NCBI GenBank assembly: GCA_937919825.1 | Contig: CALFPA010000083.1 | Coordinates: 1 to 54,739 of the forward strand | DNA length: 54,739 bases | Origin: an uncultured Spartobacteria bacterium | Lineage (GTDB): Bacteria > Verrucomicrobiota > Verrucomicrobiia > Chthoniobacterales > Terrimicrobiaceae | Reading direction: 5' to 3' | Shown here: piece after piece, positions 14,607-39,806 of the stretch | Layout: each line of letters opens with the position of its first letter | How positions within the stretch are numbered: position 1 is the stretch's first letter | Notes under the pieces: model-generated | Seen by the model: the letters and a program-made list of their open reading frames with translations, nothing else | The model's database searches: none | What the model was told of the DNA's origin: nothing | Position numbers and translations under genes: made by a program

Positions 14607-15218
14607 TTAGTCCAGAACTCCGGCGAGGAGGAATTTTTCGAGCAACTCCATCCGAGTCATGACATCCAACTCTTGGAAGATAATTCGGCGAGTCTGGGGA
14701 TTCTCGAAAACCGTCGAGGCCAAGAGGTCTGCAAACGCGCCATGGGTGGTGATGGTGTTGAGGTGGTCGACAAACCCATCGGGGATTCCGAGCTTTTCCA
14801 CGGCTTGGGAACGGAACGCAGCCATGATCGATCGGCGGAGCGATTCGAGGGAGGCATTCGACTCGTCTGGATCGTTCAACATGAGCATTTCGCTGCGAGG
14901 GTAGGGATCGAGGTGGATTTCATGGAATGCCACGCGGGTGACTCCTTGGAGGACGAGATTCGAAGTGCCGTCGGGATTCGTCACACAGGCCCTGATCATG
15001 CCGATCGCGCCGAGGGATTCGCTGGCATCTTCTTCGTAGAGGGTATGAGCGATTGCAAACATCCGGTTCCCCAAGAGGGATTCGGCAACCATTTCCCTGT
15101 AGCGGTCCTCGAAAATTTTGAGCGGCATCATGGCTCCCGGAAAAAGGGTCACCCATGGCAGGATCATCAACCCCGTTTGGTCCGGGTATTTTGTGATTTG
15201 ATCGATCATCACTGCCAA
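14607..15218 (-). CDS. LON-substrate-binding-domain protein
   Basis: A 203-residue protein made almost entirely of a Lon N-terminal (PF02190-like) domain: LPWVTLFPGAMMPLKIFEDR at about 20-39, then RACVTNPDGTSNLVLQGVTR and a helical tail. It has no AAA+ or protease domain. Stand-alone LON-domain proteins are widespread; a role in substrate recognition is presumed but unproved. The start may be ATG 15218 or ATG 15209. It lies 56 bp after the MBL hydrolase gene on the same strand. Confidence 0.8.
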   Translation of the reverse strand: MAVMIDQITKYPDQTGLMILPWVTLFPGAMMPLKIFEDRYREMVAESLLGNRMFAIAHTLYEEDASESLGAIGMIRACVTNPDGTSNLVLQGVTRVAFHEIHLDPYPRSEMLMLNDPDESNASLESLRRSIMAAFRSQAVEKLGIPDGFVDHLNTITTHGAFADLLASTVFENPQTRRIIFQELDVMTRMELLEKFLLAGVLD

Positions 15219-27875: not shown

Positions 27876-28559
27876 TCAGTGAAACAAGCGGAGGACGGAG
27901 GCTTGGTTGGCGTTCGCTTGGATTTCGAGAGCTGTGCGGCCTTGGAGGAGCAGGGCTTGGCGGGAAATGTCAGTGGCGCGGGAGGCTTCGACTTGGGTGG
28001 TGAGGTGGCCGAGGTGGAATTCCTCGGAGATTGCGTGCTGGCGGTCGTATTCCATCATGCTCTCGATGTGCAATTGCTCACGGTGATTCTTTTCGCGGGC
28101 CACTGCGAGACGCTCTGCGAGGGTTTCGGTGGCGAGTAAGGCGGGGCGTTCGACCTCGGCGGCATCTTGTGTTTCCAAATCCTCGAAGCGGATGGTGTCC
28201 GAGTCTTTGGTTGGGGCAAAGAGGCTGATGTGGTTGAAACTTTCGGCCGCGAACGACGCGAGAACTTGGGGGTCGATCGCGGCCTGAGATGGAAAAAGGT
28301 CCTGCAGACGCGCAAGAGCTTGGTCTTGGGTCTGCAGGAAAATCAGCGCGTCGCTCAGGACTGCAATCGAGTCCTGAGCGCGCCGTATAGCCGAAGAAAC
28401 CTGCGCTTGGCCGGTGACACCTTGGTCGCTGACGGAATCGACGGGCAGCGGCCCGTGATTCGCCGAACGATGCTGGTGGCGTCGATCTTGCGCGTTTCTC
28501 TCCTGAACGCCGAGTGTTGGACAAGCGGCGGCAGGCTGGCTGTGTATGGTGAATGACAT
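27876..28559 (-). CDS. Miniature flagellin-like protein
   Basis: A 227-residue protein with flagellin-like ends. The N-terminus MSFTIHSQPAA resembles the flagellin opening MSFxINTNxAA. Residues from about 53 (VSSAIRRAQDSIAVLSDAL) resemble the D1 helix, and the C-terminus ALEIQANANQASVLRLFH closely follows the flagellin D0 consensus (AMLAQANANPQxVLxLL). The conserved N-terminal LxRLSSGLRINSAxDD block is degenerate and there is no D2/D3 insert, so it is about half the size of a standard flagellin. No other flagellar gene is in the window. A sigma-28-like promoter lies upstream. It could be a divergent filament subunit, a minor cap or junction protein, or a decaying paralogue. Confidence 0.6.
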   Translation of the reverse strand: MSFTIHSQPAAACPTLGVQERNAQDRRHQHRSANHGPLPVDSVSDQGVTGQAQVSSAIRRAQDSIAVLSDALIFLQTQDQALARLQDLFPSQAAIDPQVLASFAAESFNHISLFAPTKDSDTIRFEDLETQDAAEVERPALLATETLAERLAVAREKNHREQLHIESMMEYDRQHAISEEFHLGHLTTQVEASRATDISRQALLLQGRTALEIQANANQASVLRLFH

Positions 28560-28628
28560 ATCCGTGTCGGTGGGTTGCGGATTCCGTTCCGCTGTCGAGT
28601 GGCTGCTGGATAGAAGCCCCTGTCTAAT

Positions 28629-28655
28629 GAATCGGCCGATGGATGCGCGGGTTTA
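28629..28655 (-). promoter_or_regulatory. Candidate sigma-28 (FliA) promoter for the mini-flagellin gene
   Basis: Reading the minus strand, TAAA (28655-28652), exactly 15 bases, then GCCGATTC (28636-28629). The FliA consensus is TAAA-N15-GCCGATAA, so the -35 core and six of eight -10 bases match at the exact spacing. The -10 lies about 70 bp upstream of the start codon. Finding this in the only gap in front of a flagellin-like gene makes chance less likely. The rest of the -35 (CCCG against GTTT) does not match. Confidence 0.55.
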
Positions 28656-28668
28656 GAATAAAAACCCG
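28648..28668. other. Seven-bp inverted repeat between the pqiB end and the mini-flagellin promoter
   Basis: CGGGTTT (28648-28654) pairs with AAACCCG (28662-28668) across a 7-base loop. It lies just after the pqiB-like stop (28690, minus strand), where a terminator would be expected, but overlaps the -35 element of the candidate sigma-28 promoter and has no U-run after it. Either role is possible. Confidence 0.3.
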
Positions 28669-28689
28669 AGTCGTCGAGTGGTTGGGCGA

Positions 28690-30981
28690 TTAGTCCTCGG
28701 GAATCGAAGGATTCCAATTCAACCACTCCGGTTTTGGCGTGGCGTTGAGGATGAATTTCTCGCCGGTTTTAGCCGGGGCGCCCATGGCGGGGCCATCGGG
28801 GGTGGCGAAGGAAACTTGGCCGGCTGGGGCGAGGTTCGACTCGGTTTGGATTCGGAATTTCAGAATGCCCACAGAGGCTTTGAGGCCGCTCGAGTCCCAG
28901 AATCGGGAATTGGCCCGGACGAATTGATCGTATTTGCGATCGATCACGACGCGGAAGACGACCTCACGTCCATCGCTGGAAAGATTTTTCTCCGTGACCT
29001 GGCCGACGGGGACTCCTTTGTAAAAGACCTGCGTTCCTTTACCGATGGGGCTGTTGGGCGTGGTCAGGAAAATGTTCAAGCCGGTCGGCATGACATTGTC
29101 GTATTCGAAGCTGGAAACCCCCACGAAGGAATCCGAGGTTTTCGAGGACGATCCGGGAACCACTACGATGTAAACGCCGCTGACCAGCGTCTCGAGGCCA
29201 GTGATGCCTTGGAGGGAAATGTTCGGCCGAACGATGGAGAAAATGGAGCCCTCGCGCCGGAGGAAGTCGTAGCCTTCATCCAGTCGAACATTTACAAAAA
29301 TGTATCCGCTTTTTGGCTCCACACTTTCCACGAGGCCGATCGGCACACCGAGGTAACGGACTTGGCTGCGACCGGCGACAAGTCCTCGACCACTATCGAA
29401 CCGGATGCGGATCGGTGAGGACAAGGCTCGGGCGGCTTGCTCGTCATCAAAAAGACGGAACGACTCGCCGCCTTGGGCTTCCTTCCCTTTGGTAGCAAAG
29501 GTGTCGAAGGCAATCCCGCCGCGCAGGAGGGATTCGACGCCGGCGATGTCCACTTGGAGCACGCCCGCTCCGGCTTTGATGGAAGTGGCGGGGACACGCC
29601 AGAAGCGGGAATTGACGGCGAGGCTCGAGCGGAATTCGGGGCGGATGGCGATATCGAGGGAGGGCTGGTTTTTGTCATCGAGAGTTTTGTCGAGAACGGT
29701 GCCCACGGTGATGCCTCGGTGGTAGACAGGGGCGCCTTTGTCGATGTTGGGAAGGTTAGCGGCAGTGAGTCGGATTTTGAGGCCGTTTTGCTCGGCTTGA
29801 ATGCGCCGCCATTCTAGATCACCGACAGAGCGGGCAGTGAAAACCGTGGCTGGTTCGCCGTCGATTCCTGGCTCAAGAGCGAGGAATTCGCCCGTGACGA
29901 GGGTTTCCAAGCCGCTCACCCCTTCGAGGGAAATCTGAGGACGCACGAGGGTGAAGACAGTTGTGGTTTTAGCGAGGTTTTGGAATTCCGGCTGGAGTCG
30001 GACGGTGGCGCGGATGTTTTGGTTCGTGGGATCCGCGGTGACGGACTCCAGGATTCCGATGGGGTGACCGAGGTAGCAAACGGCTGTGTGCCCTGCGCGA
30101 AGTCCCCGGGCATCACGGAAATTGATGGTCAACGGTTCGCCGGAAGCGCGGGCGGCGCTTTCATTTGGGAAAAACTCAAAGCGGGAATTGGGCTCGGCTG
30201 GATTGCCACTGACCCCGAAATTATCATAGGCCAACCCACCATGGAGGAGGGATTCGACGCCGGGGACATCGATCGATAAACCTCCCGCGCCGAGGGTCAC
30301 AGAGGTCCAAGGCACAGACCAAAAGCGCGAATTGGCGCGGATGGAATCGCGGTAGGCGGCTTCGACAGAAACCTGGAGTGAGGCACGACCATCCGGGGCG
30401 AGGATTTTTTGGGAGACGACGCCCACTTTGACGCCTCGGTGGTAGACGGGCGTGCCGCGCGAGAGGAAGGAAATTTGGGCCCCATCGAGCCAAAAGCTGA
30501 ATGTCTGGGAGTCGGGAGCGATAATCGGAGGCTTCGGGTGTCCAATGAATTGATATTGTTTTTTTCCACCGGGAGTTCCTGCTTGGAGGGAGTTTCCGCG
30601 CACGATCGATTCGAGGCCGGTGAGTTCAGTGAGGGAAATAACGGGGCGGTCGATCCAGTATTTGGTTTCCTCGGTGGCAAGGTTTGAGGCGAAGCCCTCG
30701 AGGCGAACTTTGACGGCCACTGTTTGGAGGTCGTCTTGAATTCGGACGGCTTGAACGGTTCCAGAATTGACGCCTCGATAATAGAGGCTGGTTTTTCCTG
30801 GCTCGATTCCCGGGGCCTCGTCAAAAACGATTTCGATTTCGGGGCCTTGCGAGGCCCACTGGGCAAAAAACAACCAAGTGGTCGCCAGCGCGGCGAGGAC
30901 GGGGAAAATCCAAACCCAAGCAATGCCACGGCGGTGAATTGTGACGACCTGACCGTGGTCGGTTTTTGAAAGGTTGCTCAT
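28690..30981 (-). CDS. PqiB/LetB-like MCE protein with six MCE domains
   Basis: Intermembrane transport protein that bridges the periplasm for lipid traffic. It has 763 residues from ATG 30981: a basic cytoplasmic start, one TM (about 23-42, WVWIFPVLAALATTWLFF), then six MCE repeats. They are recognisable by LYYRGVNSGTVQAV, VYHRGVKVGVV, CYLGHPIGILESV, VYHRGITVGTV, RYLGVPIGLVESV and VFYKGVPVGQV. E. coli PqiB has three and LetB (YebT) seven, so six is intermediate. Its start overlaps the second pqiA-like gene by 4 bp (ATGA), and a 5' extension inside pqiA is rejected. It is the last gene of the run. Confidence 0.9.
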   Translation of the reverse strand: MSNLSKTDHGQVVTIHRRGIAWVWIFPVLAALATTWLFFAQWASQGPEIEIVFDEAPGIEPGKTSLYYRGVNSGTVQAVRIQDDLQTVAVKVRLEGFASNLATEETKYWIDRPVISLTELTGLESIVRGNSLQAGTPGGKKQYQFIGHPKPPIIAPDSQTFSFWLDGAQISFLSRGTPVYHRGVKVGVVSQKILAPDGRASLQVSVEAAYRDSIRANSRFWSVPWTSVTLGAGGLSIDVPGVESLLHGGLAYDNFGVSGNPAEPNSRFEFFPNESAARASGEPLTINFRDARGLRAGHTAVCYLGHPIGILESVTADPTNQNIRATVRLQPEFQNLAKTTTVFTLVRPQISLEGVSGLETLVTGEFLALEPGIDGEPATVFTARSVGDLEWRRIQAEQNGLKIRLTAANLPNIDKGAPVYHRGITVGTVLDKTLDDKNQPSLDIAIRPEFRSSLAVNSRFWRVPATSIKAGAGVLQVDIAGVESLLRGGIAFDTFATKGKEAQGGESFRLFDDEQAARALSSPIRIRFDSGRGLVAGRSQVRYLGVPIGLVESVEPKSGYIFVNVRLDEGYDFLRREGSIFSIVRPNISLQGITGLETLVSGVYIVVVPGSSSKTSDSFVGVSSFEYDNVMPTGLNIFLTTPNSPIGKGTQVFYKGVPVGQVTEKNLSSDGREVVFRVVIDRKYDQFVRANSRFWDSSGLKASVGILKFRIQTESNLAPAGQVSFATPDGPAMGAPAKTGEKFILNATPKPEWLNWNPSIPED

Positions 30982-38413: not shown

Positions 38414-38827
38414 GTGAACTTCGATTTCAAATTTACAAATGACGGGTTGATTCCCGTGATCGTTCAAGAGGCTTCCAAATCGGCGCGACCCGCCGGGCGG
38501 GTTTTGATGTTCGCATGGATGAATCGCGAATCGCTGGCTCTCACTTTGGAGCGTGGGTTGATGACTTATTGGAGTCGCTCGCGAAAGAAGCTCTGGCTCA
38601 AGGGCGAGTCGAGCGGGCACACCCAGCGGGTGGTTCGTTGGTATGTCGATTGCGACAAGGATGTTTTGCTTTTCGAGGTCGAGCAGGAAACCGGAGCCTG
38701 CCACACGGGATACGAGAGTTGTTTCTTTCAGGAGATGGACCGCGAGGCACAGCCGCTACCAGTTCGTGAATCGAAAATGTTCGACGATGCGGCGGTCTAC
38801 AGCCCCGCGCCGACGGGTCAGGGTTGA
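38414..38827 (+). CDS. hisI: Phosphoribosyl-AMP cyclohydrolase
   Basis: Third step of histidine synthesis, opening the adenine ring of PR-AMP; zinc-dependent. From GTG 38414 it has 137 residues. The family blocks are VLMFAWMNRESLALTLERG, SRSRKKLWLKGESSGH, VDCDKDVLLFEVEQ and TGACHTGYESCFF, with metal-binding Cys and Asp residues intact. It stands alone without HisE fused, away from other his genes in the window. The frame is open upstream to 38177, but that part is antisense to the roadblock gene. Confidence 0.93.
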   Translation: MNFDFKFTNDGLIPVIVQEASKSARPAGRVLMFAWMNRESLALTLERGLMTYWSRSRKKLWLKGESSGHTQRVVRWYVDCDKDVLLFEVEQETGACHTGYESCFFQEMDREAQPLPVRESKMFDDAAVYSPAPTGQG

Positions 38828-38960
38828 GCGGCTCCCTGCGGGGCGCCCACTTTTTTGCGAGAGTTTTTTGAACGAATTCGGCTGCGCGTTGTCGAATCTA
38901 AGACAAGCGCCCTTGGGATTTCCCCGGAGGCGAAAAAAACAAACTCAACTCTCAAAAACA

Positions 38961-39806
38961 ATGGCATTCGAAGACATCGACACCGGCTTGCAACTCTACC
39001 TGCGGCAGATTGGAGAATATCCCCTGATCACTGTGCAGGATGAGATAAAACTAGCCCGTCGCATCAAGCGCGGCGACAAGGAGGCGCGTGCCATCATGGT
39101 CCGCTCGAACCTCCGTTTGGTCGTCAAGATCGCGCGCGACTACAGCAATTTTGGTCTCCCGCTCCTGGACCTCATTTCCGAAGGGAATATCGGCCTTATG
39201 AAAGCGGTCGAGCGGTTTGACCCCAAAAAAGGCGGCAAGCTGAGCACCTACGCGGCGTGGTGGATCAAACAATCCATCAAGCGTGCGCTGGCCAATCAGA
39301 GCAAAACGATCCGCCTGCCCGTCCACTTGGTCGATAAAATCGCCAAGCTTCGCCGGGTTTCCAATCAAATGACCGAGGAACTGGGTCGTGAGCCCACCGA
39401 CGAGGAATTGGCCGAGGAAGTCGGCATGGCGGCCGCCAAGGTCGCGTCGCTGAAAAGTGCGGCGATTCGTCCCACCTCACTCGATCAACCGCTCGGCGAT
39501 GACGACCACTCCTCGCTTGGCGATATCATCGGCGATGACGACGCGCAGGATCCCTTTGAGCAACTTCGCGACAAGGATCTCCGCAACGAGGTTGGCGATT
39601 TGCTGGATGTCCTCGACGACCGGGAACGCAAAATCATCAACTCACGCTTCGGCTTGGATGGCCAAAAGACCAAGACCCTCGAAGAGGTCGGCGTGAAATT
39701 CGGCGTCACCCGCGAGCGCATCCGTCAGCTTCAAAATATCGCCCTGCGGAAACTCCGCCGAGCGCTTCAGAAAAAAGACCGTTCCAAGGTTGAGTTTTCG
39801 ATCTGA
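38961..39806 (+). CDS. Sigma-70 family RNA polymerase sigma factor, lacking region 1.1
   Basis: Encodes 281 residues. Region 1.2 is GLQLYLRQIGEYPLITVQDE. Region 2 contains RDYSNFGLPLLDLISEGNIG and KLSTYAAWWIKQSIKRA, the core-binding and -10 recognition helices. Region 3 is followed by region 4 with the helix-turn-helix TLEEVGVKFGVTRERIRQLQ. There is no region 1.1 or non-conserved insert. This resembles the compact primary sigma of Bacteroidetes and also RpoS-type factors, so primary or stationary-phase identity is unresolved. ATG 38961 is chosen because the family begins at this point. A hairpin with a T-rich tail follows. Confidence 0.93.
   Translation: MAFEDIDTGLQLYLRQIGEYPLITVQDEIKLARRIKRGDKEARAIMVRSNLRLVVKIARDYSNFGLPLLDLISEGNIGLMKAVERFDPKKGGKLSTYAAWWIKQSIKRALANQSKTIRLPVHLVDKIAKLRRVSNQMTEELGREPTDEELAEEVGMAAAKVASLKSAAIRPTSLDQPLGDDDHSSLGDIIGDDDAQDPFEQLRDKDLRNEVGDLLDVLDDRERKIINSRFGLDGQKTKTLEEVGVKFGVTRERIRQLQNIALRKLRRALQKKDRSKVEFSI

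Follow-up and report, generated by a model that had tools for sequence, protein, structure and literature searches.

The orphan open reading frame at positions 27876–28559 of the minus strand is probably a regulated, functional gene, as suggested by the FliA-type promoter and the CsrA-type leader found upstream of it. It encodes a protein of 227 residues, here called the mini-flagellin, that is a diverged flagellin paralog according to sequence profile, tree and predicted structure. The window, i.e., the whole 54,739-nt stretch of DNA that was analyzed, makes up contig C83 in an assembly of 143 contigs that is of Verrucomicrobia lineage and 99% complete; its nearest named relative is a Lake Pavin MAG. 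In the genomes searched, the paralog is confined to one lake-dwelling Verrucomicrobia genus.

Identification of a short flagellin paralog

The window ORF had no match in Pfam or NCBIfam, and the gathering scores of PF00669 and PF00700 were not reached; some members of the mini-flagellin family do match PF00700, but weakly. Despite this, the family profile matched solved flagellins with a best E-value of 1.9e-6, pointing to flagellin homology over D1 and the C-terminal D0. The predicted D1 core (residues 42–183) could likewise be superimposed on filament flagellins with a Z score of ~12 over ~137 residues, in a structure model that has a pLDDT of 64 and shows residues 1–48 as disordered. The sequence profile was given more weight than the structure because unrelated helical bundles can attain a Z near 13, as the structure comparison itself warns, and adding flagellins to the structure alignment gave no better model. 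Taken together, profile and structure bear out the description of the ORF as flagellin-like in an earlier note on this DNA. A FlgL identity was considered and rejected, as a separate FlgL-like gene is present in a flgN-flgK-flgL-fliW-csrA row and FlgL is a distant outgroup in the tree.

An ortholog was found in 13 of the 16 genomes of the genus, with 22–97% identity to the window protein, and in the tree a branch with a support of 99/96 separates the 13 mini-flagellins from the other sequences. This branch is long, and identity to flagellins is ~20–23%. The tree does not settle which flagellin gave rise to the mini-flagellin; the common leader described below is the one feature that would point to a derivation from the flagellins of the MSVV type. 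When the single window protein was used as a query, the sole match was a 97% relative in the Verrucomicrobia MAG LacPavin. A profile search of 213 genomes of the order gave matches outside the genus that look like ordinary flagellins. Within the genus, no ortholog was found in G006, G009 and G010. G006 is 97% complete and has flagellins and FliA, so the gene is dispensable or was lost there. G009 had no flagellin match and G010 just one FlgL-like match, both having fliA; in these two, the flagellin loci may have been lost or may be absent from the bins.

The ORFs are intact in the 13 genomes and every close pair of the family has a dN/dS of 0.11–0.24. Such values show that the gene is not a fossil, in line with what the earlier note had argued.

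Segments kept and lost in the mini-flagellin

The N-terminal D0 (ND0) is 76% identical among the flagellins of the genus and its relatives as against 23% between those and the mini-flagellins. The ND0 segment LQRSLNRLSSGxRINSS of filament flagellins is replaced in the mini-flagellins by a variable polar sequence, and the conserved ND0 pattern LxRLSSGxRINSxxDDA was not found in the window protein, whose first residues, MSFTINTN, resemble flagellin. The best-kept region is the C-terminal D0 (CD0), at 34%. The Asn of the NLEAAN motif is missing in 13/13 mini-flagellins. This residue probably corresponds to the Asn, conserved at the C-terminus, whose presence is crucial to the binding of FliW in B. 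subtilis. FliW contacts ND0 and D1-C of flagellin, while FliS contacts the C-terminus (PMC5466977, PMC6070490). With CD0 kept, and both ND0 and the D1-C Asn lost, we infer that the mini-flagellin would bind FliS and would not bind FliW, and its sequence is compatible with a FlaC-like behavior.

On these sequence features, a role outside the filament appears to have an even chance. The protein might instead be a minor structural flagellin, incorporated in small amounts, for example by the hook or the cap, and needing other flagellins to do so. We regard this as rather unlikely but as an alternative to be taken seriously, as the modeled D1 core matches flagellins at the Z of ~12 given above, CD0 is the best-kept region, the MSFTINTN start is flagellin-like and the Caulobacter FljJ protein combines a hook-proximal place in the filament with a regulatory function (PMC7591256). 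A filament subunit of this kind would, however, have had to do without the ND0 that is so uniform among filament flagellins, since this part is replaced in the mini-flagellins and is modeled as disordered.

Two GGA hairpins in a putative CsrA-type leader

A second layer of control, which goes beyond the earlier note, is suggested by the leader, which is of CsrA type and is predicted to be bound by CsrA. Three hairpins can be drawn on the minus strand. The first, H1 (28598–28621), folds weakly in the window sequence, yet 9/9 of its pairs covary across the orthologs. In the 13 mini-flagellin leaders, 32 cells are changed on both sides as against 11.0 in shuffles, these figures being for the whole structure. 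The second, H2 (28577–28592), reads GCGGA-ACGGAA-TCCGC and is a putative CsrA-type site, as indicated by the comparison of leaders and by the ANGGAN loop rule for CsrA/RsmE (PMC7652899). The third, H3 (28555–28568), reads GACA-CGGATA-TGTC, spans the start codon and carries the second GGA site. Aligned were 22 leaders, 13 of them from mini-flagellins and nine from MSVV flagellins. In this set, H2 (5 bp, hexaloop ACGGAA/C) was paired in 100% of the cells, with two pairs compensated, and H3, a predicted hairpin, was invariant in sequence. A covariance model of H2 and H3 run over the organism's own genome matched this gene, one flagellin gene and, weakly, another flagellin gene, and nothing else. 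The mini-flagellin leader had no match in Rfam.

Both CsrA and RsmE bind ANGGAN hexaloops (PMC7652899), two GGA sites in the leader mediate the repression of hag and of flaA (PMC7652899; PMC4894983), and the C. jejuni flaA leader has two ANGGA stem-loops with compensatory changes (PMC4894983). The mini-flagellin leader has the same two features of a CsrA/FliW-type leader, an ANGGA in a hairpin loop and another GGA where translation starts. The GGA of H3 ends 1 nt before the AUG (28559–28563), as it also does in the MSVV leaders, and is too close for an ordinary Shine-Dalgarno sequence.

The leaders of the true flagellin genes have in common an apparent pseudoknot of the H type, RGTG-AGGTCR-CAYY ... 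YGGCC, with the GGA hairpin after it. Leaders of this kind were collected upstream of flagellin ATGs in the organism's own family (L007, L040, L045, L046, L054, L063 and L038) and in another family of the order (L089, L093, L096, L098, L099 and L101). In this set, 96% of the cells are paired, 9/15 pairs are compensated and no Rfam match was found; the pseudoknot is possibly an undescribed structured RNA. In the mini-flagellin leader, a plain hairpin takes the place of the pseudoknot.

As the CsrA-type hairpins are conserved and the C. jejuni flagellin mRNA itself titrates CsrA (PMC4894983, PMC5466977), one could imagine that the RNA outweighs the protein, the leader acting as an extra CsrA sponge that enables the translation of flagellin mRNAs. 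This is improbable: a single leader would be a minor addition to those of several flagellins, and the purifying selection acting on the amino acids shows that the protein is used.

A FliA-type promoter conserved in all the orthologs

The minus strand from 28655 to 28629 reads TAAA-CCCGCGCATCCATCG-GCCGATTC, i.e., TAAA-N15-GCCGATTC. The motif sits in the 130-bp gap (28560–28689) that separates the ATG at 28559 from a PqiB-like gene with its end at 28690, and an interval of 69 nt lies between the motif and this ATG. The sequence therefore agrees with the earlier note, which had described this motif on the minus strand in the sole upstream gap at about 70 bp before the ATG; its remark that no flagellar gene is nearby is true of the surrounding genes examined. 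The -35 element (28652–28655, minus strand) is TAAA, with TAAA or TCAA in 13/13 orthologs, and the -10 element (28629–28636, minus strand) is GCCGATTC with the conserved core GCCGAT at a spacing of 15. TAAA, GCCGAT and the spacing are those of an E. coli-type FliA promoter (TAAA-N15-GCCGATAA), and core and spacing are present in 13/13 orthologs; unlike in the E. coli type, the last two bases of GCCGATAA, the final AA, are not conserved in the genus. A gene for an RpoS/RpoD-type sigma factor is located ~10 kb away in the window (38643–39806, plus strand); with a score under the cut-off for FliA, it is distinct from FliA.

By itself the motif is weak evidence because no genome-wide enrichment was seen. 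With at most one mismatch, the 10-base core occurred at 207 places in the whole 2.71-Mb genome, which is the chance level given the 200 in the reversed control, and no recognizable flagellar target was found downstream of the other five perfect cores. In the 54.7-kb window, TAAA-N15-GCCGATWW gave a single match with at most one mismatch, this site, and 11 matches with at most two, where 9.25 are expected. A score of at least 10/12 was reached within the last 130 nt of shuffled upstream regions with P ~0.005 (~0.5%).

It is the comparison of orthologs that makes the motif evidence solid. All 13 have the motif with a spacing of 15, starting 96–98 nt before the ATG and scoring 9–12 of 12. Among seven distant representatives, TAAA is 88% identical and GCCGAT 92%, compared with 29% for the 40 bases upstream, 38% for the spacer and 32% for the 25 bases downstream. 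Although the motif served as the anchor of this alignment, its interval to the ATG differs by no more than 2 nt. Six genomes have a common neighborhood, and the gene families that flank the ORF there were not seen next to any other ortholog. Promoter and gene have thus been kept as a unit in changing surroundings. The alignment across relatives that the earlier note had proposed as a check thus found the motif conserved in every ortholog, also next to unrelated flanking genes.

The same comparison bears on the idea of a decaying flagellin duplicate that has its old promoter and leader by descent. The fast divergence and long tree branch, the orphan location and the loss of segments conserved in all flagellins would fit such decay, but the low dN/dS in every close pair, the 13 intact ORFs and a promoter core that was kept while the neighboring bases drifted to 29–38% identity make it very improbable. 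It is scarcely credible that the promoter match is due to chance and the gene transcribed from another promoter, for although the motif occurs at chance frequency genome-wide and ends in TC rather than AA, all the orthologs have it at one position with the core conserved and the surroundings drifting.

Flagellar machinery of the genome and genus

A search for fliA, also proposed in the earlier note, showed that FliA is encoded in the organism's own genome (L001), at 237 bits against a TIGR02479 cut-off of 189.6 and two genes away from a MotB-like gene. FliA was above the cut-off in 13 of the 16 genomes of the genus. Together with the motif conserved in 13/13 orthologs, the presence of fliA supports the proposal of the earlier note that the mini-flagellin gene is under late-flagellar regulation. 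The row of flgN, flgK, flgL, fliW and csrA is located on contig C108, which also has a FliS gene. Hence both genes expected for CsrA/FliW regulation, csrA and fliW, are present. CsrA has 103 residues with a long C-terminal tail, and an extended tail has been described for the FliW-type CsrA (PMC5466977).

Seven genes of this genome encode flagellin N- and C-terminal domains, one of them being the FlgL-like gene. Flagellins of the MSVV type in the genus have similar FliA-like motifs ~122–126 nt before the ATG, but these are often weaker and often have a spacing of 16. On sequence comparison, promoter and leader of the mini-flagellin resemble those of the FliA-type flagellins of the genus. In place of a FliA motif, a promoter resembling those of sigma-54 (TTGGCACG-N4-TTGC and variants) precedes the MISINVNPAASGAGLNL-type flagellins, as seen for L009 (G000:C59, about 14650–14755) and similarly for L047, L048, L055, L056, L057 and L059. 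With FliA-like and sigma-54-like promoters both present, flagellin transcription in the genus seems to involve two sigma classes. Flagellin matches at G003:C5:1699-3287 are in pieces and in different frames, one with an internal stop, and are either decayed flagellin copies or assembly errors in a tandem array.

Proposed model and comparison with known systems

We infer that FliA uses the promoter, that CsrA binds the leader and FliS the protein, that FliW does not bind the protein and that its role is outside the filament. In the model that we propose, a FliA (sigma-28) promoter would drive a single functional gene, that of the short flagellin paralog. The transcript would start a few bases past GCCGAT and its leader would carry two GGA hairpins, which a CsrA dimer could bridge, blocking translation until FliW frees the leader, as for Campylobacter flaA and Bacillus hag. 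Given a FliA promoter and a CsrA/FliW-type leader, the mini-flagellin would be made late, in step with the filament flagellins. As CD0 is kept while ND0 and the D1-C Asn are lost, the product would probably be exported by FliS, be invisible to the FliW flagellin sensor and form no filament by itself; like FlaC or FljJ, it could serve as an accessory or a regulatory flagellin. The full reading is that of a genus-specific non-filament flagellin wired into the flagellin checkpoint, one that would have a FliA promoter and a CsrA leader in common with the filament flagellins, draw on FliS, escape FliW and tune flagellin output or export instead of forming filament. We offer it tentatively, at somewhat less than an even chance.

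The C. jejuni FlaC protein is a secreted non-filament flagellin that is bound by FliS and not by FliW (PMC5466977). Like FlaC, the mini-flagellin is flagellin-like, encoded apart from the main flagellins and has kept the FliS-binding end, and it is predicted to bind FliS and not FliW. The parallel is incomplete because the C. jejuni flaC mRNA is not enriched with CsrA (PMC4894983), whereas the mini-flagellin gene has a CsrA-type leader. The likeness implies no common origin.

Caulobacter crescentus FljJ cannot form a filament alone and controls the translation of other flagellins (PMC7591256). The mini-flagellin is likewise a diverged flagellin paralog, and by analogy it could be both unable to form a filament and regulatory. 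However, FljJ acts with FlbT, while the mini-flagellin is found in a genome with FliW and CsrA, and FljJ is 49% identical to the other Caulobacter flagellins, far above the identity of the mini-flagellin to flagellins.

As for C. jejuni flaA and B. subtilis hag, two GGA sites are present in the leader, and fliW and csrA in the genome. The resemblance to flaA extends to the location of the GGA sites in hairpin loops, the ANGGA sequence and the compensatory base-pair changes. The mini-flagellin and MSVV leaders differ from both in having the second GGA 1 nt from the AUG, and in an extra covarying structure upstream, H1 in the mini-flagellins and the pseudoknot in the true flagellins.

Significance

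The control of flagellin by CsrA and FliW is known from Bacillus and Campylobacter. Among the papers that name FliW, CsrA, flagellin and Verrucomicrobi together, none was, by title and abstract, on CsrA-FliW control in Verrucomicrobia. Our analysis suggests the same wiring in another phylum, with an orphan paralog that would be under both control layers while stripped of the parts that FliW reads. An orphan ORF that family models do not recognize can, in this way, be assigned to a regulon through its conserved leader. The mini-flagellin would thus be a natural test case, a copy of flagellin whose regulation was kept although the protein itself may no longer belong to the filament.
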